From Gammaproteobacteria bacterium (GTDB taxonomy: Bacteria; Gemmatimonadota; Gemmatimonadetes; Longimicrobiales; Gaopeijiaceae): a DNA stretch of 64,000 nucleotides. The DNA is taken from contig VXNP01000149.1 of assembly GCA_009840525.1 (NCBI GenBank), positions 1 through 64,000 of the forward strand, given 5' to 3'. The notes beneath the pieces were generated by a model. That model was not told where the DNA came from. It ran no database searches and saw only the letters and a program-made list of their open reading frames with translations. Positions 11,510-58,680 of the stretch are shown here, one piece after another; the stretch's first letter is position 1; each line of letters opens with the position of its first letter. Position numbers and translations under genes: made by a program.

Positions 11510-11513
11510 GCCG

Positions 11514-12666: not shown

Positions 12667-14039
<1,373 letters not shown>

Positions 14040-14091
14040 CCTTCTCCTGGGCGCGTGTTCGCCGGCCAGCGGGCCGGAGGGCGCCCTGCTT

Positions 14092-17100
<3,009 letters not shown>

Positions 17101-17188
17101 GTGTTCTCGCTTCTCACTCGTTTCCCGCTTGTCGTCATGGGCTTCGCGTTCTCGCTTCCGGCGGTGGCTGCTCATGACTCCCGCCCGT

Positions 17189-17761: not shown

Positions 17762-18116
17762 GAAGCGCGCGGTTCCTTGGCGTGTGGAGGTTCGAAGGAA
17801 TGGTTCGCGCCGTTCGCATCCGGCGGCGACGGAGACACGCGGCCCATGTGGTTCGGGCCGCAAGTTAGGGGCACCGGTGGCGAGCGTCAACGGAACGGGT
17901 CGGAGTGGATCGGTTGGAACCCGGAGACCCCAGTTCGCGAAAAGAACAGTCACGGAACGGATGCACGAACCCCCGGCCGAGGAGGATGCTGCAGGATGAC
18001 CGTGTCACCATGGCGGAGCACACGACCAGGCAGGTGCGGGAGAGCGCCAGCAGTACCCGAGTTGCGCGGATCGCGGCGCTGGATTTCCAAGGCTGCGGAT
18101 GATAACGTAAGCCACC
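17762..18116. other. Divergent intergenic region between actA and a small hypothetical gene
   Basis: About 355 bp without a convincing gene. It contains the act promoter (17862-17890). The stretch from 17900 to 18100 shows an open frame with no family signal and mixed codon third positions, so I regard it as noncoding. An AT-rich GATGATAAC at 18096-18106 lies just before the plus-strand ATG at 18117 and may be part of that gene's promoter. Confidence 0.6.
17862..17890 (-). promoter_or_regulatory. Sigma70-type promoter of the actABCDEF operon
   Basis: On the minus strand TTGACG (17890-17885) is separated by 17 bp from TAACTT (17867-17862). Spacing is ideal and the -35 matches five of six consensus positions. 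The start of transcription would be near 17855, giving a leader of about 95 bases before the actA ATG. Confidence 0.7.
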
Positions 18117-41598: not shown

Positions 41599-41644
41599 GC
41601 GTCGGGATGCCGCCGTTCTGCGGGAGGGCCGACCGTCGCGGCGT

Positions 41645-42964: not shown

Positions 42965-43049
42965 TGTCTCCCTGGGGTTGAAGCGTCGTGCCGGGCCGAT
43001 CCGTCCCGGGCGGGTTCCGAGCCTGCCGTGGCAACGGGCGGGCAGAAGA

Positions 43050-43081
43050 TGATAATAGTTATCGGTACGGCACGCCTTCAA
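43050..43081 (-). promoter_or_regulatory. hemA promoter overlapped by a Fur-like dyad
   Basis: On the minus strand TTGAAG (43081-43076) is followed after 18 bp by TATTAT (43057-43052). Overlapping the -10 is TGATAATAGTTATCG (43050-43064): GATAA and TTATC form a perfect dyad, and the sequence matches 12 of 14 informative positions of the 7-1-7 Fur half-sites TGATAAT-N-ATTATCA. The site lies between divergent hemA and the ferredoxin gene, so it could control both. Regulation by Fur is inference. No fur gene is in the window. Confidence 0.6.
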
Positions 43082-43164
43082 CCTTGCCCGGTTTCGCGGC
43101 CCTGGAGATGTTCAGCCGTCCCGGCCGACACCGGCGAGGACTCTACTTCAGCGACGGGATCCCC

Positions 43165-43410
43165 GTGAGCGACATTGACGAGCGACGGACAGGAGATCTT
43201 CTGATCCGGATCGACCGAGACCTCTGCGTGGGCTTCGGCGACTGCATCGAGGCCGCGGATGCCGCGTTCGAGCTGGATGACGAGGGGATTGCGGCCTTCC
43301 GGGAGGGCATCGACAAAGTGGACCGCGAGACGCTGCTGGCCGCGTGCGACGAGTGCCCCGTGGACGCGATTTCCGTACTCGATACCGACGGAACGCAGCT
43401 CGTGCCCTGA
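43165..43410 (+). CDS. Small 3Fe-4S/4Fe-4S-type ferredoxin
   Basis: An 81-residue ferredoxin of the type used with P450s and other oxidoreductases. Cysteines are at about residues 21, 27, 61 and 64, in DLCVGFGDC and ACDECPVDAI. The C-x5-C then C-P layout, with Phe-Gly between, suits a 3Fe-4S cluster. A GTG at 43165 with GGGA five bases upstream gives the usual length. An ATG at 43108 would add 19 residues. It is the first gene of the plus-strand arm and is 22 bp from mrp. Confidence 0.82.
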   Translation: MSDIDERRTGDLLIRIDRDLCVGFGDCIEAADAAFELDDEGIAAFREGIDKVDRETLLAACDECPVDAISVLDTDGTQLVP

Positions 43411-43432: not shown

Positions 43433-44341
43433 ATGAGAAAGATCCGCACCTACCACGAAGTGGAGTCGCTGACGGGCGACCTTCTCGTCGATCAGATCCG
43501 GGGCCAGCGCCGCCGGCTCGACCGCCGGCTGGCCGGGATTCGCAACCTGGTCGCCGTCGGAAGCGGCAAGGGCGGAGTGGGCAAGAGCCTCGTGACGGCC
43601 AACCTGGCTGCCGCCCTGGCGGCGGAAGGCCGCACGGTCGGCGCGCTGGACGCAGACCTGAACGGCCCGTCGCTGGCCCGCATGCTGGGCGCGTCCGGGG
43701 AAGTGCTGGTGGACGGCGCGGAGGGTGTGGTTCCGGCGCCGGCTGCGGGCGGTGTCCGGGTGATGTCGATGGAGTTGCTGCAGAACGAGGCCGACGCTCC
43801 GCTGCGCTGGCGCGCGCCCTCCGGCGACGGCTTCCTGTGGCAGAGTTCGATCGAGACCGGGGCGGTGCGCGAGTTCCTGTCGGATGTGGCCTGGGGTGAC
43901 CTCGACTTCCTTCTGATGGACCTGCCGCCGGGAACCGACAAGATGGAGCGCGTCTTCCAGCTTCTGCCGGGGCTCGAGACGCTGCTTCTGGTGACGACTC
44001 CGTCCGAGATGTCCCGCCGGGTGGTGGCCCGGGCGGCGCGTCTGGCGCGCGAGCAGGGAATCCCGACCGTGGGGCTGGTGGCGAACATGACCGAGTACGT
44101 CTGTCCGTGCTGCGGTCACTCGGATCCGCTCTTTCCCGGAGACGGCGTCGCCCGTCTGGCCGCATCTACCGGTCTGGAGACCTGGGGCCGGATTCCCTTC
44201 GATCCTCGTCTGGGCGAAGCGTCCGACCGCGGGATTCCCTCCGTGGTCGCCAGCGAAGATTCGCCGAGCGCGCGCGCCTTCCGGGTGCTGGCGCGGAGGC
44301 TCGCCGAACCCGGAGAGGCCGGGGAGGAGCAGGCCCGATGA
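43433..44341 (+). CDS. Mrp/NBP35-family iron-sulfur carrier ATPase
   Basis: A 302-residue P-loop NTPase that carries or transfers Fe-S clusters. The deviant Walker A is GSGKGGVGKSLVTANLA (about residues 41-57), the following LDADLNGPS and DLPPGTDK are typical, and the C-terminal CPCCG (about residues 223-227) provides cluster ligands. The common N-terminal MIP18/DUF59 domain is absent, replaced by a 35-residue helical lead. It overlaps the next gene as ATGA. In this setting it could serve the ferredoxin and the radical SAM protein. Confidence 0.93.
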   Translation: MRKIRTYHEVESLTGDLLVDQIRGQRRRLDRRLAGIRNLVAVGSGKGGVGKSLVTANLAAALAAEGRTVGALDADLNGPSLARMLGASGEVLVDGAEGVVPAPAAGGVRVMSMELLQNEADAPLRWRAPSGDGFLWQSSIETGAVREFLSDVAWGDLDFLLMDLPPGTDKMERVFQLLPGLETLLLVTTPSEMSRRVVARAARLAREQGIPTVGLVANMTEYVCPCCGHSDPLFPGDGVARLAASTGLETWGRIPFDPRLGEASDRGIPSVVASEDSPSARAFRVLARRLAEPGEAGEEQAR

Positions 44342-44790
44342 AGTTCCTCTGCATCCAGTGCGATCACATCATGGCCTTCGCGGAGCGCCAGTTGCCCGGA
44401 GACGGCACCCTGGCGGCGGTGTTCGAGTGTTCCGCTTGCGGCCGCGAGATCGCCATGCTCACCAACCCCATGGAGACGCAGTTGGTGAGCAGCATGGGCA
44501 TCGAGATCGGGGGCCGGACGGTGCCCGAACAGCCGATGGAACTGGTGCGCGGCAACCTGGAAGGAGGACGCGACGACGCCTTCGTGGAGGAGGAGCCCCC
44601 CGCTCCCGCCCGTCCCGTCCGGGTCGAGTGGACCCCGGCGGCGGTGGATCGGCTCGGCCGGGTGCCGTCCTTCGTGCGGGGCATGGTGAAGCGCATCTAT
44701 ACGGACTACGCCCGCGAACGGGGCATCGAGCGCATGACGCCCGCGGTCATGGACACGGCGCGCTCGGACCTGGGGCTGGAGGGAATGTGA
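44338..44790 (+). CDS. Zinc-ribbon protein with C-terminal PCP_red-like domain
   Basis: A 150-residue protein in two parts. The N-terminus is a zinc ribbon (CIQCDHIMAF and CSACGRE, about residues 5-37). From residue 96 it has VEWTPAAVDRLGRVPSFVRG followed by AREGR-like helices and MTPAVMDTA, the PCP_red motif known from the C-terminus of the light-independent protochlorophyllide reductase B subunit. The same motif occurs in the universal stress protein and the radical SAM protein downstream. It overlaps mrp (ATGA) and the following membrane gene (GTGA), so it is firmly in the operon. Confidence 0.8.
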   Translation: MKFLCIQCDHIMAFAERQLPGDGTLAAVFECSACGREIAMLTNPMETQLVSSMGIEIGGRTVPEQPMELVRGNLEGGRDDAFVEEEPPAPARPVRVEWTPAAVDRLGRVPSFVRGMVKRIYTDYARERGIERMTPAVMDTARSDLGLEGM

Positions 44791-45233
44791 CCGATTCGAG
44801 CCGGGACCTCGCTCAGGGGCGAGCGGCCGGGCAGGAGCAGAGCCAGGGCCCCGATGCACGAAGCGGGGATGCGCGCGCCCGCAAGTTCCGGCAGGCCGCC
44901 TTCTGGTATCTGCACGTCGGGCTGCTCTACGAGGCGGCCGTCGTCGCCATGTGGCGCAACGGGCTGGTCAACCCGATCCGGGGCCCCATCGTGCTCTGGC
45001 TGCTGCTCGGCGCCGCGATCGTGGCGCTCGTCTTCTGGGGGCTCTGGTTCCGGCGCAGCGTGTGGCTGGCCCGGGGGATCTGGGCGCTGCACGCCCTGCG
45101 TCTCCCGAGCATGATCGAGGGAGCGTTCATGCCCGGACCCGACGCCGCGCTGCCCGCAGCGTTCTACCTCACTGCCATCGTCGTCATCGTCATCAATCTG
45201 TGGATGCTGGCCCGCGCCGGATGGGATCTCTGA
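44787..45233 (+). CDS. Small four-helix membrane protein of the mrp operon
   Basis: A 148-residue protein with a charged, disordered N-terminus of about 35 residues and four predicted membrane helices (around AAFWYLHVGLLYEAAVVAMW, IVLWLLLGAAIVALVFWGLW, LARGIWALHAL and FYLTAIVVIVINLWMLA). No family was recognised. The start is GTG, overlapping the previous stop (GTGA). A membrane anchor or heme/quinone-related role is possible but nothing in the sequence fixes it. Confidence 0.75.
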   Translation: MTDSSRDLAQGRAAGQEQSQGPDARSGDARARKFRQAAFWYLHVGLLYEAAVVAMWRNGLVNPIRGPIVLWLLLGAAIVALVFWGLWFRRSVWLARGIWALHALRLPSMIEGAFMPGPDAALPAAFYLTAIVVIVINLWMLARAGWDL

Positions 45234-45581
45234 CGCGGCAGCGGGGCGATTCCCCGGGGTGGATTCTTGCGCTTCATGCGCCGTTGCCGGACCCCTCCGC
45301 AGCGTTTGACATCGACAAGCGATCTCCGGTATTATTTGCCCGGCTCCGCGGGGGCCGACACATGAAATCTGATGAGCGGGCCCGGGTGCCCGCTTATGTT
45401 ATGTTCGCCGACCTTTTCGGCGACCGCCTTCGGGACTTGGCCCTGCCTGACTTGCCCAACCAAGTGGACCGCTTCCAGCCCGCTGGGCCCCCTCGGATGG
45501 GCCTCCTGCACCCGCCGCTCCAGCGTCGCATGGCTGAACCACAAGCGCCTCGTCCCTCGATAACCTTGAATCGAGACAGCC
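45234..45581 (+). other. Leader region of the universal stress protein gene
   Basis: About 348 bp between the small membrane protein gene and the universal stress protein gene. It contains the promoter at 45306-45335, then an untranslated or partly translated leader of about 240 bases. Two hairpins are clear, GCGGGC-CCGGGT-GCCCGC (45377-45394) and TCGCCGA-CCTTT-TCGGCGA (45405-45423). An open frame from 45362 to 45592 (76 codons) fills the leader and overlaps the next ATG by 11 bases. Its codon third positions are mixed and it may be a leader peptide or chance. Confidence 0.5.
45306..45335 (+). promoter_or_regulatory. Near-consensus sigma70 promoter for the universal stress protein operon
   Basis: TTGACA (45306-45311, perfect) is followed after 18 bp by TATTAT (45330-45335). 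This is the strongest promoter sequence in the window and implies high basal transcription of the universal stress protein, radical SAM and cytochrome genes, with a start near 45342. Confidence 0.75.
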
Positions 45582-47702
45582 ATGTACCGTGAGATCTTCG
45601 TGCCGGTGGACAACTCGCCTTGGTCGGACTGGGCGGTAGATCGCGCCATCGAGTTCGCTTCGCATTCCGACGGAAGGATCACCGGAAACCACGTCTACGC
45701 CGCGCGTCTGCACGACATCCGCTTCCGCCAGCTGGAGACCGGGCTTCCCGCTCAGTTCCAGACGGAAAAGGAGATCAAGCGCCAGCGCAAGATCCACGAC
45801 AAGCTGATCGAGAAGGGGCTGCAGCTCATCTCCGACTCCTTCCTCGACCAGGTAGACAAGCGGTGCGGGGCCGCCGGCGTGCCTCTCACGCGCCAGCTTC
45901 TCGAGGGCATCAACTACGAAGAACTGGTGAGCGAGGTGAACTCGGGAGAGGGCCATCTGCCGAGCCTCATCGGCTTCGATCCCAACATCGCCTCCAGCTA
46001 CGACGGGGGCGACAAGGTGCGCAGCGACGTGCGCCTGGGCGAAGACGGCCGCATCGTCGCAGAGGACGAGGAGCACGACGAGAAACTGGCCGGATCGAGC
46101 GGCCGCGCCTACGACCTGATGGTGATCGGGGCGCACGGGATCGGCTATCAGCCCTACTCGCAGCTCGGCGGCGTGGTGGCGCGCGTGCTGCAGAAGGTGG
46201 AGAAGGACACCCTCGTGGTGCGCAACGAGCGGCCGCTCGCCGGGGGCAGCTTCATGGTGTGCGTGGACGGGTCCGCGTACAGCTACAAGGCCATGCGCCT
46301 CGCTCTGGAGATGGCGTCTGAGTACGGGGCGAAGCTCTACGTGGGCTCATCCTTCGATGTCGAATACCATCATGCGGTCTTCGGCAACATCAAGGACGTG
46401 CTCTCGGTGCAGGCCTCGAAGATCTTCAAGTTCGAAGAGCAGGAGGAGCTTCACAACAACATCATCGACAAGGGCCTGCTGAAGCTCGCCCAGGCGAACG
46501 TGAAGCGGGCGCGCATCATGGCGGAGGAGTACCCGGAGGTCGAAGTCGAGGCCCAGGTGCTCATCGGCAAGCCCTTCCAGGTCATCCTGCAGTGGGCCGA
46601 GGAAGTCGACCCCAGCCTGCTCATCCTCGCGCGCCACGGGGCGCACCGCATCGAGGGCACGGACCTGGGGTCGCAGGCGCACAACCTGCTCAGGCAGTCG
46701 AACGCGAACATCCTCCTCATCGGCACCACCGACGTGCGTCCCGAGGAGATTCCGTGGATCGAGGAAGACGGCGAGATGGGGCTCGAGTGGGCTCCGGAGG
46801 CGGAGGTCCGGATCCTGCGGGTCCCGCCCTTCGCGCTCGGCATCGCCCGCAAGGCGGTGGAGGAATACGTGCTGGAGAACTGGAGCCCGGGCGAGGATCC
46901 GTCCCGGCCCTCCGCCAACGGATCCGGCGGCGCCAATGGAGCGCGGGCGAACGGTGCCCCGGACGCGCGGGCCAACGGGTCCAACGGCGCCGAGCCCCCG
47001 GTGCTGGAGCCCGGGCGCGACACCGGCGCCACCCTGCCCATGGTGACCAGCAAGTGGCTGGACGAGGCGATCGCAAAGCTGCTGCCCACCCACATGCAGC
47101 TCATCATGGGGATCGGCACGGCCGAGGAGCTCGCCCTGGCCGAAGTGAAGGCGGCGGAGGCCATGAAGCGCACGGTGGTAGAGGGCAGCGACGCCGATGC
47201 GGTGTCCGCCAACCCGACCATCGAGGTGACGTGCCCCTACACCGGGCATGTCCATGAGCGAACGCGCACGGCCGCCGACCCGGTGGTGTGGACCGAGGAG
47301 GCCTTCGACCGGCTGGGTGCAGTGCCTCTCATCGCCCGTCCCCTGGCCCGCAACACCGTGGAGCGCTTCGCCCGCGACCACGACTTCTGGCGCATCACCA
47401 CGCGGGTCATGGACGAGAACAAGCAGGCCATGATGGAGGCCGACACCTTCGACACCGACACCATGCTGGTCATGTTCCGGGAGCTGCAGACCAAGCAGCT
47501 GAAGGCGGCCGCCGAGGGGGTCGACGGGCTGACGCCCGAGATGCGCAAGTTCATCGAGGAAGCCAAAGCGTCCGGGGTGACTCGTTGCCCGATCCGGGAC
47601 GTGGCCGAGCAGGCGGACGACTGCCCCGTCGACTTCAAGACCGTCAGCCCCGCCGACGCGAAGGCGGCCGTCGAGCAGTTCATGCGGCGAGACGAGGCTT
47701 GA
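45582..47702 (+). CDS. Tandem universal-stress-protein with two PCP_red-like segments
   Basis: A 706-residue soluble protein. Two UspA-like nucleotide-binding domains occupy about residues 1-225 and 225-390, with the binding-loop patterns IGAHGIGYQPYSQLGG and RHGAHRIEGTDLGS. Then LEWAPEAEVRILRVPPFALG (W at about 403) and VVWTEEAFDRLGAVPLIARP (W at about 570) match the PCP_red motif. A linker of about residues 440-480 is rich in Asn, Gly, Ala and Ser and looks disordered. The C-terminus contains CPIRDVAEQADDCPVDF. The combination is unusual. It is followed by the radical SAM gene with a one-base overlap. Confidence 0.85.
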   Translation: MYREIFVPVDNSPWSDWAVDRAIEFASHSDGRITGNHVYAARLHDIRFRQLETGLPAQFQTEKEIKRQRKIHDKLIEKGLQLISDSFLDQVDKRCGAAGVPLTRQLLEGINYEELVSEVNSGEGHLPSLIGFDPNIASSYDGGDKVRSDVRLGEDGRIVAEDEEHDEKLAGSSGRAYDLMVIGAHGIGYQPYSQLGGVVARVLQKVEKDTLVVRNERPLAGGSFMVCVDGSAYSYKAMRLALEMASEYGAKLYVGSSFDVEYHHAVFGNIKDVLSVQASKIFKFEEQEELHNNIIDKGLLKLAQANVKRARIMAEEYPEVEVEAQVLIGKPFQVILQWAEEVDPSLLILARHGAHRIEGTDLGSQAHNLLRQSNANILLIGTTDVRPEEIPWIEEDGEMGLEWAPEAEVRILRVPPFALGIARKAVEEYVLENWSPGEDPSRPSANGSGGANGARANGAPDARANGSNGAEPPVLEPGRDTGATLPMVTSKWLDEAIAKLLPTHMQLIMGIGTAEELALAEVKAAEAMKRTVVEGSDADAVSANPTIEVTCPYTGHVHERTRTAADPVVWTEEAFDRLGAVPLIARPLARNTVERFARDHDFWRITTRVMDENKQAMMEADTFDTDTMLVMFRELQTKQLKAAAEGVDGLTPEMRKFIEEAKASGVTRCPIRDVAEQADDCPVDFKTVSPADAKAAVEQFMRRDEA

Positions 47703-49150
47703 TGGCCGGTCTCCGCGCGCCCGTTCTGCCCACGGTCGGGCGGGACGGCTTCTCCGAGCCCTCCGCCACTCCCTCCCTGCGCTGGGTCGCGGAGGGCGTA
47801 TCGGCGGATTCGGGGGCGGCGCCGGGTCTCCCGCACATCATCGCGTGGAATCTCACCCGGCGCTGCAACCTGGAGTGCGCGCACTGCTACATCTCCGCCG
47901 GAGCGTGGCACCTGGCCGACACGGAGTTGTCCACCGCGGAGTGTCATCGCGTGCTCGACCAGGTTCTGGAGGTCAACCCGAACCCGGTGCTCATTCTCTC
48001 GGGTGGGGAGCCCCTCCTGCGCGACGACCTGGAAGAGATCGCCGCCCGGGCGAGCGCCGGCGGGGCCACCGTGGTGGTGGGCACCAACGGCACCCGCCTC
48101 ACCGACCACCGCATCGAGTCGCTCATGGAGGCGGGGGTGAAGGGGGTCGCGGTCAGCGTGGACTCGCTGGTCGACACCTACCACGACCGCTTCCGCCACG
48201 GGTCGGGGGCGCTCTCCGACACCCTGGCCGCGGTGGACCGGCTCGCCGCCCACCGCCTGGACTTCATCGTCCAGACCAGCGTGACCCGGGGCAACCGGGC
48301 GGAGGTCGCCTCGATCGCCGCCTGGGCGGAGAGCCGGGGCGCGGTCTCGTTCAACCTGTACTTCCTGGTTCCGACCGGGCGCGGGGAGCGCATGCAGGGC
48401 CTCTCTCCGGAAGAGAACGAGACGGTGCTGGCCGAACTGGTGGAACTCGAGCGCAAGTACCGGGGCCGCATGATGGTGCGTTCCAAGTGCCAGCCGCAGA
48501 TCATGCGCCACGTGATCGAGGGCGGGGAGGAGTCGCCGCTGCTCAACTACGGCACCCGCTGCCCGTGCGGCGTCCACTACTGCCGCATCACCCCGGAGGG
48601 CAAGGTCACGCCCTGTCCCTACACCCCGGTGGTGGCGGGCGACCTCACCACCACCCCCTTCCGCCAGGTGTGGGAGTCGTCTCCCGTCTTCACCCGGCTG
48701 CGGGGTGGGGAGCTGGGAGGGCGGTGCGGGCGCTGCGAGTACCGTTCGGTGTGCGGGGGCTGCCGCGCGCGCGCCCACGCCCTGACTGGCGACCTGCTCG
48801 GCCCCGACGACTCCTGTGCCTACGATCCGGCCGGTGACCGGGCGGTCATCGAGCCGCGGCGAGCGGTCGTGTACGGCGACGACACCTCCCCGGGGCTTCC
48901 CTGGACCGAAGAGGCGCGCGCACGCCTGTCCGTGGTGCCCAGTTTCGTGCGCGGGGTGGTGTCCGAGCGCGTTGAGTCGTTCGCGCGCAAGCGCGGGTAC
49001 ACGAGTGTGACCGCCGACGTCATGGCAGAGGTGCGCCGCGGCATGCCGGTTGATTTCTCCAGGCGGCTGCCTTTCTTCCTACGCAAACAGATGTCCGCGG
49101 CCGCATCGCGCGACGGGACTCCGGAGGAGGACGATGTTCCCCGGAGTTGA
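47702..49150 (+). CDS. Radical SAM/SPASM protein with C-terminal PCP_red-like domain
   Basis: A 482-residue radical SAM enzyme. The cluster loop is CNLECAHC (about residues 55-62), with LILSGGEPLLR. The SPASM part has C-G-V-H-Y-C, CPYTP, CGRCEYRSVCGGCRARAHA and a last Cys. The segment CGGCRARA is characteristic of the heme d1 and siroheme-pathway enzymes NirJ, AhbC and AhbD, so a role in tetrapyrrole side-chain chemistry is a reasonable inference. From about residue 399 it carries LPWTEEARARLSVVPSFVRG, the PCP_red motif. It is not followed by nir genes. It overlaps the CydA-like gene by 17 bp if the ATG at 49134 is used. Confidence 0.85.
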   Translation: MAGLRAPVLPTVGRDGFSEPSATPSLRWVAEGVSADSGAAPGLPHIIAWNLTRRCNLECAHCYISAGAWHLADTELSTAECHRVLDQVLEVNPNPVLILSGGEPLLRDDLEEIAARASAGGATVVVGTNGTRLTDHRIESLMEAGVKGVAVSVDSLVDTYHDRFRHGSGALSDTLAAVDRLAAHRLDFIVQTSVTRGNRAEVASIAAWAESRGAVSFNLYFLVPTGRGERMQGLSPEENETVLAELVELERKYRGRMMVRSKCQPQIMRHVIEGGEESPLLNYGTRCPCGVHYCRITPEGKVTPCPYTPVVAGDLTTTPFRQVWESSPVFTRLRGGELGGRCGRCEYRSVCGGCRARAHALTGDLLGPDDSCAYDPAGDRAVIEPRRAVVYGDDTSPGLPWTEEARARLSVVPSFVRGVVSERVESFARKRGYTSVTADVMAEVRRGMPVDFSRRLPFFLRKQMSAAASRDGTPEEDDVPRS

Positions 49151-50975
49151 CAAGACCTCGGAGAGAAACGTGCCGAAACCTGGTATGACGTGGCGCTCCG
49201 GCGCCGGACCCATCCTTCTGCTGGGTGCGCTGGCCCTCCTGGTGATGGCGGAGCCCGCATTCGCCCAGGTGCCCGCCGGGCGCGATTACGGCGACTTCCC
49301 GGTCATCGGCGGGCGGGCGGCCGTGTGGATCGCGGCCCAGGTGCACCTGCTCTTCGCAGCCTTCGTGCTGGGCGTGCCCATGTTCGCCGTGGTCACCGAG
49401 GCCATCGGCATGTTCGGCGGCGACGAGCGCTACGACAAGCTGTCCAAGGAGTTCACCCGGCTTCTGCTGGTCGCGTACTCGGCCACCGCCATCTGGGGCG
49501 GCATCCTGCTCTTCCTGCTGGTCACCATCTACCCGACCCTGTTCAGCTACCTCGCGCAGATCTTCAACCTGTCGATGTGGATCTACGTGGGGCTCTTCTT
49601 CTTCGAGTCCTTCACGCTGTACCTGTACTACTATGGCTGGGACCGCTGGAAGAAGGGGCGCGCCAAGTGGTTCCACTGGGGGCTGGGGATCGCCCTGAAC
49701 GTGTGGGGCACGATCGTCATGTTTATCGCCAACGGCTGGCTGACCTACATGATGAGCCCGCCGGCCGACGTCACCGTCGACACCGCTCCGCAGATGATCC
49801 AGTTGTGGACGGCGCTCACCAACGCGACCTGGATGCCGATCAACATCCACCGGCTGATCGCCAACGTCGTGTTCGGCGGGGCGGTGGTCGGCGCCTACGC
49901 GGCGTACCGCTTCCTGGCCGCAAAGAGCGACGAGGAGCGGGCGCACTACGACTGGATGGGCTACGTGGGCAACATGATCGCCATCGGCGCGCTCATCGTT
50001 CTGCCCTTCGCGGGCTACTGGCTGGGCCGCGAGATCTACGAGTTCAACCAGCAGATGGGCATCACCATGATGGGCGGCTTCATGAGCTGGCTGTGGATCA
50101 TCCAGGCCTTCCTGATCGGGATACTGTTCCTCGCCGGCAACTATTACCTGTGGGTGGGGATGGGCCGAATACCCGGGGCGGAGCGCTTCATGCCCTACAC
50201 GAAGTACATGCTCGCCGTGCTCATCGTGGGCGTGATCGTATGGGCGACGCCCAACACCATGATCGCCAGCCGCGAGGAGTTCGCGGCGATGGGCGGCACG
50301 CACCACCCCTTCCTGAGCGTCCTCGGGCTGATGAGCGGCAAGAACACGGCGGTCAACTTCATGATCCTGACCACCTTCCTGTCGTTCCTGCTCTACCGGC
50401 GCGCAAACAAGGAACCGGTGGTGCCGTGGGCGCGCACCGGCACGATCGTGCAGGGCGCGATTTTCATCATTGCTTCGGCGGTCGTGCTGTTCTACGGGAT
50501 CTACGGCTACAGGGTGCCGACCATCGTGCGCATCGGCTTCTCGGTCTACCAGGTGCTCACGGTGCTCGCGTGCATCATCGGCGTGATCACCATCGACCTG
50601 CTGATGCTGCGCGGTGCCACCTCGAGAGGCACGATCCGGTGGGGCCGGATGCCGGCGCGCTCGCAGTACGCGCTCTTCATCCTGGCGGTGACCTTCACCT
50701 GGCTGATGGGCCTCATGGGCTTCGCGCGCAGCGGCATCCGCCAGCACTGGCACGTCTTCGAGGTCATTCGCGACACCAGCCCCTGGGCGGCGACCCCGGC
50801 GCTGGGCTATTCGTCCGTGGTCATCTCGGCCTGCGTGCTCATCTTCTTCGGGCTGGTGGCCTTCATCTTCTGGCTGGGCTCGCTGGCCGAGAAACCCGTG
50901 ATATCGTCAGCGGGCCGGACCTCGGCCGCGGGCGGGATCCAGAGCGACCTTCAGCCGGCACCCAGCGAGGGATAG
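49134..50975 (+). CDS. Cytochrome bd-like subunit I (CydA family), no CydB partner
   Basis: A 613-residue membrane protein of the CydA family with about a dozen helices. The motif QVHLLFAAFVLGVP corresponds to the heme-ligand helix of CydA (His19 in E. coli), YVGLFFFESFTLYL keeps the conserved Glu of the heme b595/d site, MFIANGWLTYMMSPP matches the ANGWM region, and IHRLIANVVFGG corresponds to His186. The usual GRQPW quinol-loop motif reads RDTSPW. A signal-peptide-like N-terminus ends AEPAFAQ. I used the ATG at 49134, where GGAGGAGG precedes it. A GTG at 49170 is possible. The genes that follow encode c-type cytochromes and no cydB. Confidence 0.85.
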   Translation: MFPGVDKTSERNVPKPGMTWRSGAGPILLLGALALLVMAEPAFAQVPAGRDYGDFPVIGGRAAVWIAAQVHLLFAAFVLGVPMFAVVTEAIGMFGGDERYDKLSKEFTRLLLVAYSATAIWGGILLFLLVTIYPTLFSYLAQIFNLSMWIYVGLFFFESFTLYLYYYGWDRWKKGRAKWFHWGLGIALNVWGTIVMFIANGWLTYMMSPPADVTVDTAPQMIQLWTALTNATWMPINIHRLIANVVFGGAVVGAYAAYRFLAAKSDEERAHYDWMGYVGNMIAIGALIVLPFAGYWLGREIYEFNQQMGITMMGGFMSWLWIIQAFLIGILFLAGNYYLWVGMGRIPGAERFMPYTKYMLAVLIVGVIVWATPNTMIASREEFAAMGGTHHPFLSVLGLMSGKNTAVNFMILTTFLSFLLYRRANKEPVVPWARTGTIVQGAIFIIASAVVLFYGIYGYRVPTIVRIGFSVYQVLTVLACIIGVITIDLLMLRGATSRGTIRWGRMPARSQYALFILAVTFTWLMGLMGFARSGIRQHWHVFEVIRDTSPWAATPALGYSSVVISACVLIFFGLVAFIFWLGSLAEKPVISSAGRTSAAGGIQSDLQPAPSEG

Positions 50976-50984
50976 GGGAGGCAG

Positions 50985-51785
50985 ATGCTAAAGACCAACC
51001 TGAGTATCCTGGCCGTTGTGATCGGCTGCCTGGCCGTGTTCACCTGGGTCGCCAACGCCATCCCGCAGCTCCAGTCGGATGTGCCCGAGGACCTGGTGTT
51101 GTCGGACGACGTCACCCCCGCGGAGCTGATCGCGGCGGGCGAGGAGCTGTACAACGGCGGCGGTGGTTGCACGGCCTGCCACGGCCTGGGCGAGCGCGCC
51201 CCGAACCTGCTCACCGATCATGCGGGGACCGGGCTCATCGGCGAGCGCTGCGCGAACCGCGTGCCGGGCGAGGACTGCAAGCAGTACCTGCATACGTCCA
51301 TGGTAGACCCCAACGCGTACCTGGTGGAGGGGTTTGCGCCGATCATGCTGGACGCGAGCCGCACCCTCTCCTCCGTGCAGATCTGGGCGATTGTGGCCTA
51401 TCTGCAATCCCTGGGAGGGGAGGTCACGGTTACGGGAGCGGATTTTGCGGACGATGGCGGCGCGGCACCCGCCGGCGGGGTCGTGGCGAGCGCGCCCGCC
51501 GCCCCGGTGCTGGGTCCGACCGGGCCCCTCGACCCGGAAGAGCTTCTGACCCGGTACACCTGCGCCACCTGCCACGCGATCAGCGGGCCCTCGCCGCTGG
51601 GGCCGTCCTACGAGGGCATGGGATCTCGCCTGACCGCCGATGAAATCCGGACCTCCATCCTCGATCCCACCGCGTCGGCGGCCGAGAATTTCGAGGCGAT
51701 GCTCGGGATCATGCCCCCGATCTTCGGCAACATCCCGGCGGCCGAACTCGAGGCGATCGTGCAGTTCATCGCATCGCAGAGATAG
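50985..51785 (+). CDS. Membrane-anchored diheme cytochrome c
   Basis: A 266-residue cytochrome with an N-terminal helix (LSILAVVIGCLAVFTWVA) that anchors it. Two class I heme sites are seen, GCTACHGLG (about residue 60) and TCATCHAIS (about residue 190), separated by a Gly/Ala/Pro-rich linker of about 35 residues. Each domain ends with a MetPro-type ligand segment (GFAPIMLDAS and GIMPPIFG). It is 9 bp downstream of the CydA-like gene and probably carries electrons to or from it. Confidence 0.88.
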   Translation: MLKTNLSILAVVIGCLAVFTWVANAIPQLQSDVPEDLVLSDDVTPAELIAAGEELYNGGGGCTACHGLGERAPNLLTDHAGTGLIGERCANRVPGEDCKQYLHTSMVDPNAYLVEGFAPIMLDASRTLSSVQIWAIVAYLQSLGGEVTVTGADFADDGGAAPAGGVVASAPAAPVLGPTGPLDPEELLTRYTCATCHAISGPSPLGPSYEGMGSRLTADEIRTSILDPTASAAENFEAMLGIMPPIFGNIPAAELEAIVQFIASQR

Positions 51786-51812
51786 GAGACGCGCCTTGAG
51801 GGAGAAGAATCG

Positions 51813-52616
51813 ATGAACACCAAGCCCTGGAAGCATCCGCTGGGCCAGGCGGCCATCGTCGTGGTGCTGGCGTACGTCCTCTTCGAATGGGGCATCTGGC
51901 TCCTGCCGCCCCTCTTCGGTGTCGCCAGCGCGCCGGTGCCCGCCACCGTGGTCCTGCAGTACATGGGGACCGTGGTCGTGGGCGTGCTGATCTGGGTCAG
52001 CGACTCCGAGGAGCGCTGGAAGCAGTTCAAGGCCCCCATCCACCGGGTCATGGTCGATCCGCGCCAGAAGGTCCTGCGCACGGCGCTCATGGTCACCATT
52101 CCCCTTCTGGTCGCCTTCATGACCTTCGACCGGGTGCGGCCCACGGTCTCGGCCCCGGCCGCGCTGCGTTCGGTGCATCCGGCGCCCCCAGGACAGATCG
52201 ACTTCCGCGGCGAGACCATGGTCCTCAACGGGCTCGAGAACCCGCTCCGGCACGAGGGCGACCTGGAGGAGCACTACGAGGAGGGCAAGAGGATCTACGT
52301 TCAGAACTGCATGCCGTGCCACGGCGATGCGCTGGACGGGCAGGGGCACTTCGCGAGCGCCTTCAACCCCGCGCCCCTCAGCTTCCAGGACCCGGGCACC
52401 ATCGTACAGCTCACCGAGAGCTTCGTCTTCTGGCGCATCGCCAAGGGCGGTCCCGGACTGCCGCGCGAGGCCACGCCCTGGGACTCGGCGATGCCCGCCT
52501 GGGAGGACCTGCTTACCGCCGAAGAGATCTGGCAGGTGACCATCTACCTCTACGAACAGACCGGCTGGGAGCCGCGCACCTGGGAGGAAGAGGGCGCCGA
52601 AGGGGAGGAGCACTGA
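51813..52616 (+). CDS. Cytochrome c with N-terminal membrane helices
   Basis: A 267-residue protein with two or three N-terminal membrane helices (QAAIVVVLAYVLFEWGIWLL and VVLQYMGTVVVGVLIWVS, then VLRTALMVTIPLLVAFMTF) followed by a soluble cytochrome c domain. The heme site is NCMPCHGDALDGQGHFA (about residues 169-185) and the likely sixth ligand is the Met in DSAMPAWED. The layout resembles subunits that fasten a cytochrome to a membrane complex. It overlaps the next gene by one base (TGATG). Confidence 0.85.
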   Translation: MNTKPWKHPLGQAAIVVVLAYVLFEWGIWLLPPLFGVASAPVPATVVLQYMGTVVVGVLIWVSDSEERWKQFKAPIHRVMVDPRQKVLRTALMVTIPLLVAFMTFDRVRPTVSAPAALRSVHPAPPGQIDFRGETMVLNGLENPLRHEGDLEEHYEEGKRIYVQNCMPCHGDALDGQGHFASAFNPAPLSFQDPGTIVQLTESFVFWRIAKGGPGLPREATPWDSAMPAWEDLLTAEEIWQVTIYLYEQTGWEPRTWEEEGAEGEEH

Positions 52617-54220
52617 TGCGGGCGCGAGCGAGCAGTCCACGGGCTGCGATGATACCCGGTTTCGTATTCGCCGCGGCGATGACGTGCGCGCTTTCGGCCC
52701 CTCTCGCCGCCCAGGAAGAGAACGCGCTCGGGCGCGACGTCTACGACCGCTGGTGCGCCTCCTGCCACGGCTACGAAGGCCTCGGTGACGGCTACGCGGC
52801 GACCTACATGCTGCCGCGCCCGCGCGACTTCACCCAGGCGCTCTACCAGATCCGCACCACCGCCAGCGGGCAGCTTCCCACCGACGACGACATCATGCGC
52901 GTCATCAACGAGGGCATGCCGGGCACGACCATGCCCGGATGGGAGGAAGAGCTCAGCCTCGAAGAGCGACTCGCGCTCGTCGACTACCTCAAGAGCTTCT
53001 CCCGGTTCTTCGCCGCCGGCGAGGCTCCCGCGCCGCTGACCTTCAGCAGCCCGACGCGCGCCACCGAAGAAGCCCTCGCCGACGGTCGCGAGGTATACGA
53101 GCTCATCGAGTGCAATCGCTGCCACGGCATCGACGGGAGGGGCGACGGCACCTCCTCGCCGACGCTCGTCGACGACGCGGGGATGCCCACCTACTCGGCG
53201 GACCTGACCGAGAACTGGTACTTCAACGGCGGCGGCACGGTGGAGGACATCTACCAGCGGCTGCGCACCGGCCTGGACGGGACGCCGATGCCGTCGTTCA
53301 CCGACCTGATCGACGCCGGGGTCATCACCGACGAACAGCTGTGGAACCTCGCGCACTACGTTCGCAGCTTCGCGCCCGAAGACCCGCCGGGCATCACCGA
53401 GGTGATCCGGGCCGGTCTGGTGGAGGATGCGCCGCTGCCGGATGGCGTCGACGACCCGCTGTGGGAGTCGGCCGAGGCGTTCTACATCCCGATGGGCGGG
53501 CAGATCATCGAGAGCCCGCGCTGGTTCGTGCCGCAGGTGGCGGGGCTGTGGGTGCGCGCCCTGCACGATGGCGGTGAGCTCGCGGTGCACGTCTCCTGGA
53601 GCGACCACTCCGAGAGTCCCGACACCGCGTGGGCGGCCTTCCAGGCCCAGGTCCTGTCGGCGCTGGGACCCGCCGAGGGCGACATGGAGCCGGGTCCCAG
53701 ACCCGACGGCCTGTACCTCCAGTTCCCCATGGAGATCCCGGAGGGGATGGACAAGCCCTATTTCCTCATGGGAGATCCGCTGGAGCCCGTGTACCTGTGG
53801 CACTGGGAGAGCACGGCGGACGGCGCGCAGGAGGCGGACGCGCGCGGGCTCGGCACCATGGCGCCTCAGGGCAACGCCAGCCAGTCGCTCGTGTCGGAGG
53901 CGGCGTTTTCGGAGGGGCGCTGGGCTGTTATGTTCCGCCGCACTCTTGAGAACGAGGATCCGGGCGATCTGCAGTTCCGTATCGGCGAGCCGGTGCCGGT
54001 CGGCTTCGCCGCGTGGGACGGCGACAACGGAGAGTCGAGATCCCGGGGTTCGATCAGTTCATGGCACTACATTTTCCTGCAGGAACCGACGCCAGCCACC
54101 GTGGTGGTCGCGCCGCTGATTGCGACGCTGCTGACCGCCGGGCTGGGCGTGCTGGTTGTGGCCCGGGCCCAGAGGCGCGAGCGGGAGGGCGCCGAGGGCC
54201 CGGATGAAGGCGACGCGTAG
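52616..54220 (+). CDS. Diheme cytochrome c fused to an ethylbenzene-dehydrogenase-type heme b domain
   Basis: A 534-residue exported protein. After a signal peptide (AMTCALSAPLAAQ) come two cytochrome c domains with CASCHGYEGLGDG (about residue 43) and CNRCHGIDGRGDG (about residue 167). Residues from about 275 to 490 match the heme b-binding EB_dh family (gamma subunit of ethylbenzene dehydrogenase and relatives). A C-terminal helix (TVVVAPLIATLLTAGLGVLVV) anchors it. Such fusions mediate electron transfer between periplasmic or quinol donors and cytochromes. It joins three heme groups in one chain. Confidence 0.85.
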   Translation: MRARASSPRAAMIPGFVFAAAMTCALSAPLAAQEENALGRDVYDRWCASCHGYEGLGDGYAATYMLPRPRDFTQALYQIRTTASGQLPTDDDIMRVINEGMPGTTMPGWEEELSLEERLALVDYLKSFSRFFAAGEAPAPLTFSSPTRATEEALADGREVYELIECNRCHGIDGRGDGTSSPTLVDDAGMPTYSADLTENWYFNGGGTVEDIYQRLRTGLDGTPMPSFTDLIDAGVITDEQLWNLAHYVRSFAPEDPPGITEVIRAGLVEDAPLPDGVDDPLWESAEAFYIPMGGQIIESPRWFVPQVAGLWVRALHDGGELAVHVSWSDHSESPDTAWAAFQAQVLSALGPAEGDMEPGPRPDGLYLQFPMEIPEGMDKPYFLMGDPLEPVYLWHWESTADGAQEADARGLGTMAPQGNASQSLVSEAAFSEGRWAVMFRRTLENEDPGDLQFRIGEPVPVGFAAWDGDNGESRSRGSISSWHYIFLQEPTPATVVVAPLIATLLTAGLGVLVVARAQRREREGAEGPDEGDA

Positions 54221-54253
54221 ACATCGAAGTTCAATAGCACCACGGAGGAAGGA

Positions 54254-55132
54254 ATGAGAGACCTGTTCGGATGCGGCCGGGCCATGGTGATGGCGACGGC
54301 TGCGGTGTTCGCGATCGGTTGCGGCGGCGGTGGTGGCGGCGAGGCCGGCGGCGGCATGGAAGAAGAGGCCGCTGGCGAGGAGATGGCATCTCCCGTCGAC
54401 ATGGCGACCGCGGGCGGCATCAACGCGATGGTGATGTTCGAGGGCATGGCGCCCGAGATGGACGCGATCGACATGGCGTCCGAGCCGGATTGCGCGGCCC
54501 GGTACACCGATACCCCGATGGCCGAGGAGGTCGTGGTGGGCGACGGCGGCGGCCTGGCCAATGTCTTCGTCTACGTCAGGGAAGGCCTCGACGCCGGCAT
54601 GAGCTTCCCCACCCCGGGCGGCGCGGTGGTCATGGACCAGGTCGGTTGCCGCTACGTGCCCCGTGTAGTGGGCGTGCAGGCGGGCCAGGACCTCACCTTC
54701 CGCAACTCGGACGGCCTGCCCCACAACATCAACGCCTCGCCCAGCGAAAACCGCGGCTTCAACGTCAGCCAGCCGGTGAACATGGACACCAACCGCAGCT
54801 TCCCGCTGGCGGAGGTGATGGTCCCGGTGCGCTGCGACGTGCACGGCTGGATGAGCGCCTACGTGGGCGTGTTGGACCATCCCTTCCACGGGGTCACGGA
54901 CATGGAGGGAGGCGCCGACCTGGGCATGCTCCCGCCCGGTGAGTACGTGGTCGAGGCGTGGCACGAGCGCTACGGCACGCAGACCGCCAACGTCACCGTC
55001 ACCACCGGCGAGACCGCGATGGTGAGCTTCTCCTTCTCGGAAGCCATGGCCGCCAACGCCGTGGTGCCGATGGGCGAGCCGATCGATCCGCACGGCCACG
55101 CAGCCCACGCTCTCGCTTCCGAGACCCATTAG
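54254..55132 (+). CDS. Plastocyanin-like blue-copper lipoprotein
   Basis: A 292-residue lipoprotein. The signal peptide ends in a lipobox, VFAIGC, followed by a Gly/Glu/Ala-rich linker. A cupredoxin domain follows, with predicted copper ligands His in LPHNIN (about residue 157), then Cys and His in RCDVHGWM (about residues 196-203) and Met. The C-terminal part has an Ig/carboxypeptidase-regulatory-like fold (LPPGEYVVEAWHERYG). It is placed directly before the aa3 oxidase genes and may deliver electrons to CuA of CoxB. Confidence 0.82.
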   Translation: MRDLFGCGRAMVMATAAVFAIGCGGGGGGEAGGGMEEEAAGEEMASPVDMATAGGINAMVMFEGMAPEMDAIDMASEPDCAARYTDTPMAEEVVVGDGGGLANVFVYVREGLDAGMSFPTPGGAVVMDQVGCRYVPRVVGVQAGQDLTFRNSDGLPHNINASPSENRGFNVSQPVNMDTNRSFPLAEVMVPVRCDVHGWMSAYVGVLDHPFHGVTDMEGGADLGMLPPGEYVVEAWHERYGTQTANVTVTTGETAMVSFSFSEAMAANAVVPMGEPIDPHGHAAHALASETH

Positions 55133-55153
55133 ACACAAGCTGCCGAGGACGGG

Positions 55154-55205
55154 CCGGCGCCTCCCCGCAGGGGCGCCGGTCCGGCACGCGGCCGGGTACC
55201 CGGCC
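55154..55205 (+). other. Two GC-rich perfect dyads before coxB
   Basis: CCGGCGCC (55154-55161) pairs with GGCGCCGG (55172-55179), and GGCCGGGTACCCGGCC (55190-55205) is a perfect 16-bp palindrome. Both lie in the 114-bp gap between the cupredoxin gene and coxB. They could be attenuating or processing structures separating the expression of the upstream cytochrome genes from the oxidase genes. There is no T-run. Confidence 0.5.
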
Positions 55206-55246
55206 CGGCCTGCATCACCCCCGGCAGCGAGCAGGAGAACACCAAC

Positions 55247-55948
55247 ATGAGCTGGTTGCTCCCCGAGAGTTTTTCCACCTTTGGGCCGGACGTCGACTTT
55301 CTGTACTACGTGATCCTGTGGGTCACGGGCGTCGTCTTCGTGATCACTGAGGCGCTCCTGGTCTATTTCGTCATCCGCTACCGGCGGCGCGAGGGGCAGA
55401 AGGCCACCTACATCCACGGGTCGACGAAGGCGGAGATCATCTGGACGACCCTTCCCTTCATCGCCGTCCTCGCACTGGCCTTCATCAGCATTCCCTCGTG
55501 GAACATGATGAAGAACCCGGACAGCGTGCCCGCCGACGCCCTCGACTACATCGTCAACGCGAAGCAGTTCGAATGGGAGATCACCTACGCCGGCACCGAC
55601 GGGGTCACCGGCACCGCCGACGACATCTCGACGATCAACATCATGCATGTCCCGGTGAACCAGGCCGTCAACATCACCCTCCGGTCCGAGGACGTGCTGC
55701 ACTCGTTCTTCCTGCCGGAGATGCGGGTGAAGCAGGACGCCGTTCCCGGAATGGACATCACCGTCTGGTTCGAGGCGACCGCCGCGGGCGCCTATCCCAT
55801 CGGATGCGCCGAACTCTGCGGTAATCTGCATACGACCATGGGCGGGACCCTCAACGTGTACGAGGCGGCCGAGTTCGATGCGTGGGTCGCCTCCCAGAGC
55901 GCGGACGCCGACGACGCCGACGACGCCGACGATCAGGAGGACCAGTAG
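55247..55948 (+). CDS. coxB: Cytochrome c oxidase subunit II (CuA)
   Basis: A 233-residue subunit II. Two membrane helices are visible (YYVILWVTGVVFVITEALL and IIWTTLPFIAVLALAFISI). The CuA site reads CAELCGNLHTTM (C, C, H and M at about residues 187-198) with the earlier ligand His in VLHSFFLPEMRVKQD. No fused cytochrome c domain is present, so electrons come from a separate cytochrome or the cupredoxin. The C-terminus is an Ala-Asp repeat (ADADDADDADD). The next gene starts at the following base. Confidence 0.95.
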   Translation: MSWLLPESFSTFGPDVDFLYYVILWVTGVVFVITEALLVYFVIRYRRREGQKATYIHGSTKAEIIWTTLPFIAVLALAFISIPSWNMMKNPDSVPADALDYIVNAKQFEWEITYAGTDGVTGTADDISTINIMHVPVNQAVNITLRSEDVLHSFFLPEMRVKQDAVPGMDITVWFEATAAGAYPIGCAELCGNLHTTMGGTLNVYEAAEFDAWVASQSADADDADDADDQEDQ

Positions 55949-57709
55949 ATGGACGCGCACGCGCACGCCCACGAGATGCCGTGGATTCGGCGTTACGTCT
56001 TCTCGACCGACCACAAGATCATCGCCATCCAGTTCCTCCTGATGAGCCTGTTCTTCCTGGTCGTAGGGGGGTTGCTGGCAGCGATGATCCGGTGGCAGCT
56101 GGGGTTCCCGAGCGAGCCCATGCCCGGTGGCATGCTGCTGCCCGACGAGATGATGGCCCCCACGCCCGCCGGCGCCATCATGCTGCCCGAGTTCTACAAC
56201 TCGCTGGTCACCATGCACGGCACCATCATGATCTTCTTCGCGATCATGCCGCTGCTGGTGGGGGTCTTCGGCAACCTGCTGATCCCGCTCCAGATCGGCG
56301 CCGACGACATGGCCTTCCCGCGCCTCAACATGGCGTCGTTCTGGATGGCCTTCCCGGCCGGGCTGCTGATGCTGGTGAGCTTCGCGGTGGAAGGGGGGGC
56401 GGCCGGCGCCGGATGGACGTCGTATGCCCCGCTCAGCGCGAGCGGTGAGTACACCGGCGTCTACCTGGGGCAGCAGCTATGGCTGATCAGCCTCACCATC
56501 CTGGGCTTCGCGTCGCTCGCGGGCGCCGTCAACTACATCACGACCATCATCAACATGCGCGCACCCGGGATGACCTGGTTCCGCATGCCGCTGGCCACCT
56601 GGGCGCTCTTCATCACCGCGATCCTGATCCTGCTGGCGATTCCGATCCTGGCGGGCGCGCTGATCATGCTGCTCTTCGACCAGACCATCGGAACCGGGTT
56701 CTTCCTGCCGGCCAGCGACGGCGAGCCGCTGCTCTGGCAGCACCTGTTCTGGTTCTTCGGGCACCCGGAGGTCTACATCCTCATCCTGCCCGCCATGGGC
56801 ATCACCTCGGACGTGCTGGCCAACGGCGCGCGCAAGCCCGTCTTCGGCTACCACGCCATGGTGCTGGCGATCGTCTCCATCGCCTTCCTGTCATGGATCG
56901 TGTGGGGTCACCACATGTTCCAGAGCGGGATGAACCCGATGCTCGGCACCACCTTCATGATCACGACCATGGTGATCGCGGTACCGTCGGCCATCAAGGT
57001 GTTCAACTGGCTGGGGACCATCTACAAGGGGAACATCCACTTGCACACCCCCATGCTGCACGCCCTGGGCTTCGTGTCGATGTTCATCATCGGCGGGCTC
57101 TCCGGCGTGTTCATGGCCTCGACCCCGGTCGACGTATACATCCACGACACCTACTTCATCGTGGCGCACATCCACTACGTGCTCTTCGGCGGCAGCCTGT
57201 TTGCGATCTTCGCCGGCGTCACCTTCTGGTATCCGAAGATGTTCGGCCGCCTCATGAACGAGAAATGGGGCAGGATCCACTTCTGGCTCACGCTGATCCT
57301 CTACAACCTGGTGTTCTGGCCCATGCACTCGATCGGGATCCAGGGACACATGCGGCGCATCTACGACCCCACGCAGTACGAGTTCCTGCAGCCCCTGCAG
57401 CCCATCAACCAGTTCATCACGGTGTGCGTCTTCGCGCTGGTGGCGGTTCAGGCGATCTATGCCCTCAACTTCATCATCAGCATCTGGAAGGGGAAAAAGG
57501 CCGGGAACAACCCGTGGCACGCCAACTCGCTGGAGTGGACGGTGCCATCGCCGCCGCCGCACGGGAACTTCGAGCTGGTGCCCATCGTCTACCGCGGGCC
57601 CTACGAGTACTCCGCGCCCGATGTGGAAGAGGACTACTGGCTGCAGGACACGCCGCCGCCGAGCGAGACCGCCGCGCCCGCTCTCGAACCCCAGCCGGTC
57701 GCGGACTAG
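55949..57709 (+). CDS. coxA: Cytochrome c oxidase subunit I, A-family heme-copper oxidase
   Basis: A 586-residue catalytic subunit with twelve helices. Ligands seen: low-spin heme His in TMHGTIM (about residue 88), CuB His and cross-linked Tyr in GHPEVYILI (about residues 271-276), CuB His pair in GHHMF (about residue 320), and high-spin and low-spin His in AHIHYVLFGG (about residues 406-409). The Glu in GHPEV is the D-pathway residue of A1-type enzymes. The N-terminus is His-rich (AHAHAHE). It starts at the base after the coxB stop. Confidence 0.97.
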   Translation: MDAHAHAHEMPWIRRYVFSTDHKIIAIQFLLMSLFFLVVGGLLAAMIRWQLGFPSEPMPGGMLLPDEMMAPTPAGAIMLPEFYNSLVTMHGTIMIFFAIMPLLVGVFGNLLIPLQIGADDMAFPRLNMASFWMAFPAGLLMLVSFAVEGGAAGAGWTSYAPLSASGEYTGVYLGQQLWLISLTILGFASLAGAVNYITTIINMRAPGMTWFRMPLATWALFITAILILLAIPILAGALIMLLFDQTIGTGFFLPASDGEPLLWQHLFWFFGHPEVYILILPAMGITSDVLANGARKPVFGYHAMVLAIVSIAFLSWIVWGHHMFQSGMNPMLGTTFMITTMVIAVPSAIKVFNWLGTIYKGNIHLHTPMLHALGFVSMFIIGGLSGVFMASTPVDVYIHDTYFIVAHIHYVLFGGSLFAIFAGVTFWYPKMFGRLMNEKWGRIHFWLTLILYNLVFWPMHSIGIQGHMRRIYDPTQYEFLQPLQPINQFITVCVFALVAVQAIYALNFIISIWKGKKAGNNPWHANSLEWTVPSPPPHGNFELVPIVYRGPYEYSAPDVEEDYWLQDTPPPSETAAPALEPQPVAD

Positions 57710-57734
57710 ACCCGATTCAGGAGATAACTGACGC

Positions 57735-58370
57735 ATGAGCCAACCAGCCGCATCGACAGCCGACCGGCATCCCATGCCCGGGATGATGGTCTACAACGTA
57801 AAGCTGGGAATGTGGATCTTCCTGCTGTCGGAAGTGATGTTCTTCACGGCCCTGATCGGGTCCTACATCATCCTGCGATTCGCCCACCCGGATCATTTCG
57901 CCGAGCCCGGGGCGGTGCTGAACGTGCCGCTCACGGCCTTCAACACCTTCGTTCTGATCTGCTCGAGCGTGTCGATGGTCAAGGCGTACGCCGCGATCAC
58001 GCAGGGTGACCAGAAGGGGCTGAAGTTCTGGCTCCTGGTGACGATTCTCCTCGGCACCTTCTTCGTCGGGGTCCAGGTGTACGAGTACATCATCCTGGCC
58101 CAGGAGGGATTCGTTCCCATGGCGGAGCTGTACGGCGTGGCCCACGAGATCGAGGGGGCCGCCCTGTACGGAGCCACCTTCTACACGATGACGGGATTCC
58201 ACGGAACGCACGTCACCATCGGGATCCTGTGCATGTGGTTCGTCCTGTACCGGGCGTGGCAGGGCAAGTACTCTGCGGACAACTACGGGGGGGTGGAGAT
58301 CATGGGTCTCTACTGGCACTTCGTAGACCTGGTGTGGATCATTCTGTTCACGATCGTATACCTCATCTGA
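57735..58370 (+). CDS. coxC: Cytochrome c oxidase subunit III
   Basis: A 211-residue subunit III with five to seven helices. LGMWIFLLSEVMFFTALIGSY near the start, FHGTHVTIGILCMWF in the second half (His and Glu positions conserved in the family) and YWHFVDLVWIILF at the end are diagnostic. Length is typical of the shorter bacterial form. It lies between coxA (25 bp) and coxD (43 bp). Confidence 0.96.
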   Translation: MSQPAASTADRHPMPGMMVYNVKLGMWIFLLSEVMFFTALIGSYIILRFAHPDHFAEPGAVLNVPLTAFNTFVLICSSVSMVKAYAAITQGDQKGLKFWLLVTILLGTFFVGVQVYEYIILAQEGFVPMAELYGVAHEIEGAALYGATFYTMTGFHGTHVTIGILCMWFVLYRAWQGKYSADNYGGVEIMGLYWHFVDLVWIILFTIVYLI

Positions 58371-58413
58371 TCATTGAGCGGCGGCGGCCGCCTGGAACCA
58401 AGGAGACATCGGG

Positions 58414-58680
58414 ATGGCAGGCAACGGCGAAGAGCCCAGATACTTCCTGATCTGGTTCATACTGTTCGTTCTGACGATGGCCGAGGTGGGGTACGCGTTC
58501 CTCGCCCTTCCGCAGTGGCTGCTGGCCACGGGGCTGATCCTCATGGCGCTCTGGAAGGCCCTGCTGGTGGCGATCTACTACATGCACCTGAAGTGGGAGC
58601 CCAAGCGGCTCTGGATTCTGGCCGCCAGCCCATTGCCGCTGGCGGTGATTCTGGTGATCGCCGTGCTGACGGAGTTCTGA
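58414..58680 (+). CDS. coxD: Cytochrome c oxidase subunit IV, small membrane type
   Basis: An 88-residue protein with three predicted membrane helices, matching the prokaryotic subunit IV family (FILFVLTMAEVGYAFLAL and LVAIYYMHLKWEPKRLW). The YYMHLKWE segment is a family marker. It is the last gene before the intrinsic terminator and completes the oxidase operon. Confidence 0.92.
   Translation: MAGNGEEPRYFLIWFILFVLTMAEVGYAFLALPQWLLATGLILMALWKALLVAIYYMHLKWEPKRLWILAASPLPLAVILVIAVLTEF

Follow-up and report, generated by a model that had tools for sequence, protein, structure and literature searches.

The locus considered here raises the question of what a CydA-like membrane protein may do when it is followed by three cytochrome c genes and not by cydB. 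The window, a Gemmatimonadota stretch of 64,000 nucleotides, contains a four-gene core at 49134-54220 in which all ORFs are intact and on the + strand, with CxxCH counts of 0, 2, 1, and 2 in order, and this core lies within a larger cluster of about 43433-58680 (Table 1). The ORFs and CxxCH counts, together with Pfam matches to Cytochrome_CBB3/Cytochrom_C in the core cytochromes and to two cytochrome c domains plus EB_dh in the fourth protein, agree with the four genes proposed in the first-pass annotation; its limits hold for the core genes but are too narrow for the cluster. The diheme cytochrome c matches 7zs0 (E=2e-19), which we take to be Kustd1711. The host genome is 4.0 Mb and 98% complete, and the closest CydA-like relative among the matches listed belongs to a BD2-11 clade bacterium (96% identity).

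Table 1. Features of the cluster and of the ACIII operon, in window coordinates
Feature	Position	Strand	Basis or remark
ACIII operon: multiheme ActA, ActB, NrfD-type ActC, ActD, ActE, ActF-like	10211-17953	-	
NrfD-type ActC	12663-14039	-	
ActB	14092-17175	-	
hemB (ALAD) and hemA (glutamyl-tRNA reductase)	40615-43081	-	divergent; tetrapyrrole synthesis genes bordering the accessory genes
Small 4Fe-4S ferredoxin	about 43100-43410	+	directly 5' of the Mrp/NUBPL gene
Mrp/NUBPL-type ParA P-loop NTPase, probable accessory	43433-44341	+	PF10609 1.6e-67; 75% of loci with long flanks
Zinc-finger-like protein (CxxC pairs) with PCP_red, probable accessory	44338-44790	+	PF08369 7e-13; 81% of loci with long flanks
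Universal stress protein (two Usp) with PCP_red, probable accessory	45582-47702	+	PF00582 5.5e-28, PF08369 1.5e-13; 81% of loci with long flanks
Radical SAM/SPASM protein, AhbD/NirJ2-like, C-terminal PCP_red	47702-49150	+	PF08369 1.5e-15
CydA-superfamily bd-like membrane subunit	49134-50975	+	PF01654 (Cyt_bd_oxida_I) 2.4e-22; no CxxCH
Diheme cytochrome c, one N-terminal TM	50985-51785	+	2 CxxCH; 7zs0_A E=2e-19
Monoheme cytochrome c, N-terminal membrane anchor (2-3 TM)	51813-52616	+	1 CxxCH; PF13442 4.5e-9
Alternative-NxrC-like protein: two c hemes, EB_dh-fold domain, C-terminal TM	52616-54220	+	EB_dh 3e-16
Cupredoxin/plastocyanin-like, carboxypeptidase-regulatory-like secreted protein	54254-55132	+	weak PF00127, PF13620; conserved position
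coxB	55247-55948	+	locus gene order
coxA	55949-57709	+	COX1 matches in genome; locus gene order
coxC	57735-58370	+	locus gene order
coxD	58414-58680	+	COX4_pro
Membrane protein of two repeated halves, after coxD	58915-59871	+	no Pfam match; about 30% of loci with long flanks

The AlphaFold2 model of the CydA-like subunit (pLDDT 78) has about 13 long helices, compared with the nine of canonical CydA, and aligns with 5doq_A and 6rx4_A as a full-length CydA fold (Z 28.7, 343-346 residues, rmsd 3.7-4.1); the next-best structural family is the NrfD-type ActC (Z 18.7). Residues were mapped from hhalign and MAFFT alignments rather than by residue-level superposition. The statement that the ligand histidines and the glutamate of the b595/d site are kept stands for the equivalents of H19 and H186 (window H71 and H239) and of E107 (window E158), all invariant in 44 aligned family sequences, but it fails for E99, a position that is never acidic and mostly aliphatic, and for E445, which is replaced by S, A, or N, in 44/44 rows each. 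The quinol-loop motif GRQPW had been read as RDTSPW; hhalign pairs R448-Q-P-W of E. coli with R536-Q-H-W of the window protein, so the counterpart is IRQHW, and RDTSPW lies just past it. Across the 44 rows the counterparts of R448 and W451 never vary and that of Q449 hardly does, while P450 is mostly His and another, invariant His directly follows the motif. For M393, the heme b558 ligand, the candidate is window M410, which is Met in 38/44 and Leu in 6/44 rows, in a region where the alignment is uncertain. All tested residues are retained in the 13/13 canonical CydA rows. Invariant histidines also occur at H181, H391, and H540 of the CydA-like subunit and might form a new active site. In the CydA phylogeny, which had been set beforehand as a test, the family is not ordinary CydA: it is split from 13 canonical sequences with 100/100 support and by a very long branch. 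Phyla largely cohere inside the family tree, and the window sequence falls among Gemmatimonadota.

The EB_dh-domain protein matches 6h5l_B (1.3e-55) and 7b04_C. The axial ligands of heme b in NXR-C are Met155 and Lys305 (PMC8387239), and the alignment places window Met385 and Gly478 at these positions; compared with the heme-b subunits EbdC and NXR-C, the window protein thus keeps the methionine and has glycine in place of the lysine. The Met ligand is kept in 36/58 family rows and the Lys ligand in 0/58, so a heme b in the EB_dh domain is not supported. Of the earlier description of the downstream genes, the diheme c, monoheme c, and diheme-c/EB_dh proteins therefore remain, and the "heme-b fusion" lacks support.

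Relatives of the CydA-like gene were sought in a genome scan that confirmed at least 557, and the best 80 of these, taken as loci, derive by record title from Gemmatimonadota, Methylomirabilota/NC10, Rokubacteria, Chloroflexi, Myxococcota, SAR324, Acidobacteria, Calditrichota, and Bacteroidota. ORFs with heme motifs lie 3' of the CydA-like gene in all 62 loci with enough downstream sequence, which come from at least eight phyla, and nearly all of them show CxxCH counts of 2, 1, and 2 with constant spacing; a few assemblies give a split or out-of-frame CxxCH count. By tblastn the cytochrome trio is likewise present in 62/62, a test that the common cytochrome fold weakens on its own. Pairwise distances of the four core proteins co-vary (Mantel r 0.88-0.95; best of 999 shuffles 0.26), and although r is inflated by relatedness, the four proteins diverge together, as expected of one complex. 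The downstream cytochromes are thus conserved with the CydA-like gene, so the refuting condition named in the first-pass annotation, a lack of such conservation, does not hold; the gene order of the whole cluster is conserved within the taxonomic order. In NC10 loci (L101:12461 and L108:10548) a single ORF with three CxxCH combines the monoheme and diheme/EB_dh proteins. There is also a second CydA-like paralogue clade of about 50% identity (L031:6387-8222 in genome G016; L117:4323-6161; L112, - strand), whose loci in SAR324 and Myxococcota contain cupredoxins and their own cytochromes; it is possibly of the A' partner kind.

Three of the genes 5' of the core carry PCP_red domains, which in the host genome are confined to the cluster. 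At least three PCP_red matches occur in 73/76 Gemmatimonadota genomes with the CydA-like gene and in 3/221 without it (297 genomes), a near one-to-one pattern whose p value of 1e-61 is overstated because of shared ancestry. The radical SAM protein scores 271 bits against TIGR04545 and 269 bits against TIGR04055, the AhbD/NirJ2 models, both below the cut-off of 500. Since the genome also has a ferrochelatase, the radical SAM-PCP_red protein is probably not needed for ordinary heme b, and it may reasonably be hypothesized to act in the modification or delivery of a tetrapyrrole. A more specific version, in which the PCP_red set together with the ferredoxin and Mrp/NUBPL proteins would make or insert a special and perhaps modified tetrapyrrole, giving the CydA-like subunit a previously unknown heme type, seems rather doubtful to us. 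The accessory genes are mostly absent within 10 kb of the Rokubacteria and Chloroflexi loci, and may be encoded elsewhere or be dispensable there. Our literature search found no paper tying PCP_red genes to bd-like clusters.

On the other side of the core, coxB, coxA, and coxC are present in 83% of the loci with long flanks, and a heme-copper oxidase family match occurs in 76/76 Gemmatimonadota genomes with the CydA-like gene, so the CydA-like module is not the sole candidate O2 reductase in these organisms. Nor is it the sole complex III, a role ruled out by the ACIII operon in the same window; bc1 cytochrome b (PF00033) has no match in the host genome. A second NrfD and a molybdopterin-type protein are encoded on another contig of this genome (C86). 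Canonical CydA and the CydA-like gene occur together in 12/76 Gemmatimonadota genomes (p = 0.11), which gives no clear signal of mutual exclusion.

Our tentative explanation, whose chance we place slightly below even, is that the four core proteins assemble into one membrane complex, linked to cytochrome c and of the bd-like/alternative-NxrC type, that operates without nitrite oxidoreductase (NXR). High-potential periplasmic carriers (the cupredoxin, the neighboring aa3 oxidase, and the pool of cytochrome c that ACIII serves) would exchange electrons with the c hemes of the cytochrome subunits, five in all, and these c hemes would in turn pass them to b-type hemes for which H71 and H239 in the CydA-like subunit are the putative ligands. 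These b-type hemes may then exchange electrons with a membrane partner, such as a quinone at a non-canonical site, the placement of the hemes and the direction of flow both being predictions. Exchange with a membrane partner is favored over O2 reduction because E99 and E445 are lost, and a quinone is more likely to be this partner than O2; retention of the same gene order in the anaerobe Kuenenia (kustd1709-1712) also supports a role other than O2 reduction. We identified no quinone site in the CydA-like subunit, in which the quinol residues of CydA are missing. Two further observations count against this explanation: the genome already has ACIII as a quinol:cytochrome c oxidoreductase, and adjacency to coxBACD would fit a second oxidase as well.

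An alternative is a putative cytochrome c-oxidizing O2 reductase of the OR-N kind, with electrons passing from periplasmic cytochromes to O2 at the CydA-like hemes. OR-N bd-like families, as outlined in PMC10839748 and PMC12342949, are proposed cytochrome c-linked O2 reductases without a quinol site or CydB, their function being putative, and both the invariance of the H19, E107, H186, R448, and W451 equivalents and the cox genes of the hosts are consistent with a similar activity here. However, E99 and E445 are absent from every family row, the same-order cluster is maintained in anaerobic anammox bacteria, every Gemmatimonadota carrier genome already has a heme-copper oxidase match, and the host genome offers no CydA' partner. 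The module probably lacks competence as a bd-type oxygen reductase, and the OR-N-like activity, although it deserves serious consideration, is unlikely. If H71 instead holds a heme at an open site, which is plausible, the complex could be a putative reductase of another small molecule (NO or peroxide), or an enzyme with a protective role, drawing electrons from cytochrome c; the universal stress protein and the heme-type radical SAM enzyme among the accessory genes would suit such a function, but we found neither a catalytic signature nor a regulatory link to NO or peroxide, and consider it quite improbable.

The two remaining explanations fare worse. Because the same four genes sit in the nxr clusters of Nitrospira and anammox bacteria (PMC6606698, PMC3578206, PMC6423088), the complex might serve as membrane anchor and electron acceptor of a nitrite oxidoreductase, as proposed for those organisms. 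The model for the catalytic subunit of type II DMSO reductases (TIGR03479) is above cut-off in 0/59 genomes, that is, in neither the host nor 58 relatives, which leaves this role here a very slim chance. An ordinary cytochrome bd quinol oxidase with a distant cydB would explain the PF01654 match and the CydA fold, but the quinol and heme residues are lost, and such an enzyme is ruled out by the 100/100 split and by the absence of PF02322 (CydB) from the 98% complete genome, so that its probability is close to nil. No cydB follows the CydA-like gene either, as had been observed at the outset.

The module is real, highly conserved, and respiratory, and is already known in kind. The form described here, free of NXR and linked to cox genes, and its tie to PCP_red appear not to have been described in the literature consulted. 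The role of the bd-like/alternative-NxrC set has so far been argued from nitrite oxidizers and anammox bacteria, where it is tied to NXR; its occurrence in many phyla, and in the window next to a heme-copper oxidase but with no NXR, suggests that at its core it serves general respiration and not nitrite oxidation. Through their near one-to-one association with it, the PCP_red and radical SAM genes also provide a testable lead to the cofactor of the bd-like complex.

Compared with the canonical oxidases bd-I and bd-II of E. coli and Geobacillus, the CydA-like subunit shares the CydA fold and the residues H19, E107, H186, R448, and W451, but it lacks CydB, GRQPW, E99, and E445, and has about four extra helices and three cytochrome c partners. 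The suggested likeness to cytochrome-linked relatives of bd fits the missing GRQPW and CydB, the constant cytochrome trio, and the 100/100 split. As the OR-N families are described, they likewise comprise CydA homologues without a quinol site, CydB, or heme c in CydA; OR-N1 and OR-N2 are thought to pair as CydAA', whereas the host genome has one CydA homologue only, and its single PF01654 match rules out such a pair there.

The first-pass annotation thought the gene set, with its EB_dh domain, to look unusual; it is not, since it is constant in the 62 loci and was already on record for Nitrospira, Nitrospina, and anammox bacteria. A bd-like oxidase, an alternative NxrC, and two c-type cytochromes occur in Nitrospina and Kuenenia (PMC3578206), and an ACIII-like role was proposed earlier for the module of nitrite-oxidizing bacteria (PMC3578206); the set has been connected with nitrite oxidation or with reverse electron flow (PMC6606698, PMC3578206, PMC6423088). 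In Kuenenia stuttgartiensis, kustd1706-1713 encode uspA, diheme, monoheme, diheme, and cydA in mirrored order (PMC6423088), and the hemes of Kustd1711 lie at about +350 mV (PMC11791136). The cydA-like, diheme c, monoheme c, and diheme c genes of kustd1709-1712 are in the same order as in the window, but the Kuenenia cluster includes nxrABC, lists no cox genes, and belongs to an anaerobe. The Nitrospira cluster combines bd-like_3/bd-like_4, alt_NxrC_2, and two cytochromes c (PMC6606698). By published description the Nitrospira and Nitrospina clusters contain the same gene set. Nitrospira is absent among the best 80 of the at least 557 loci. In contrast to the duplicated, NXR-associated Nitrospira cluster, the module in the window is a single copy without NXR, adjoins coxBACD, and carries the PCP_red radical SAM and universal stress protein genes.
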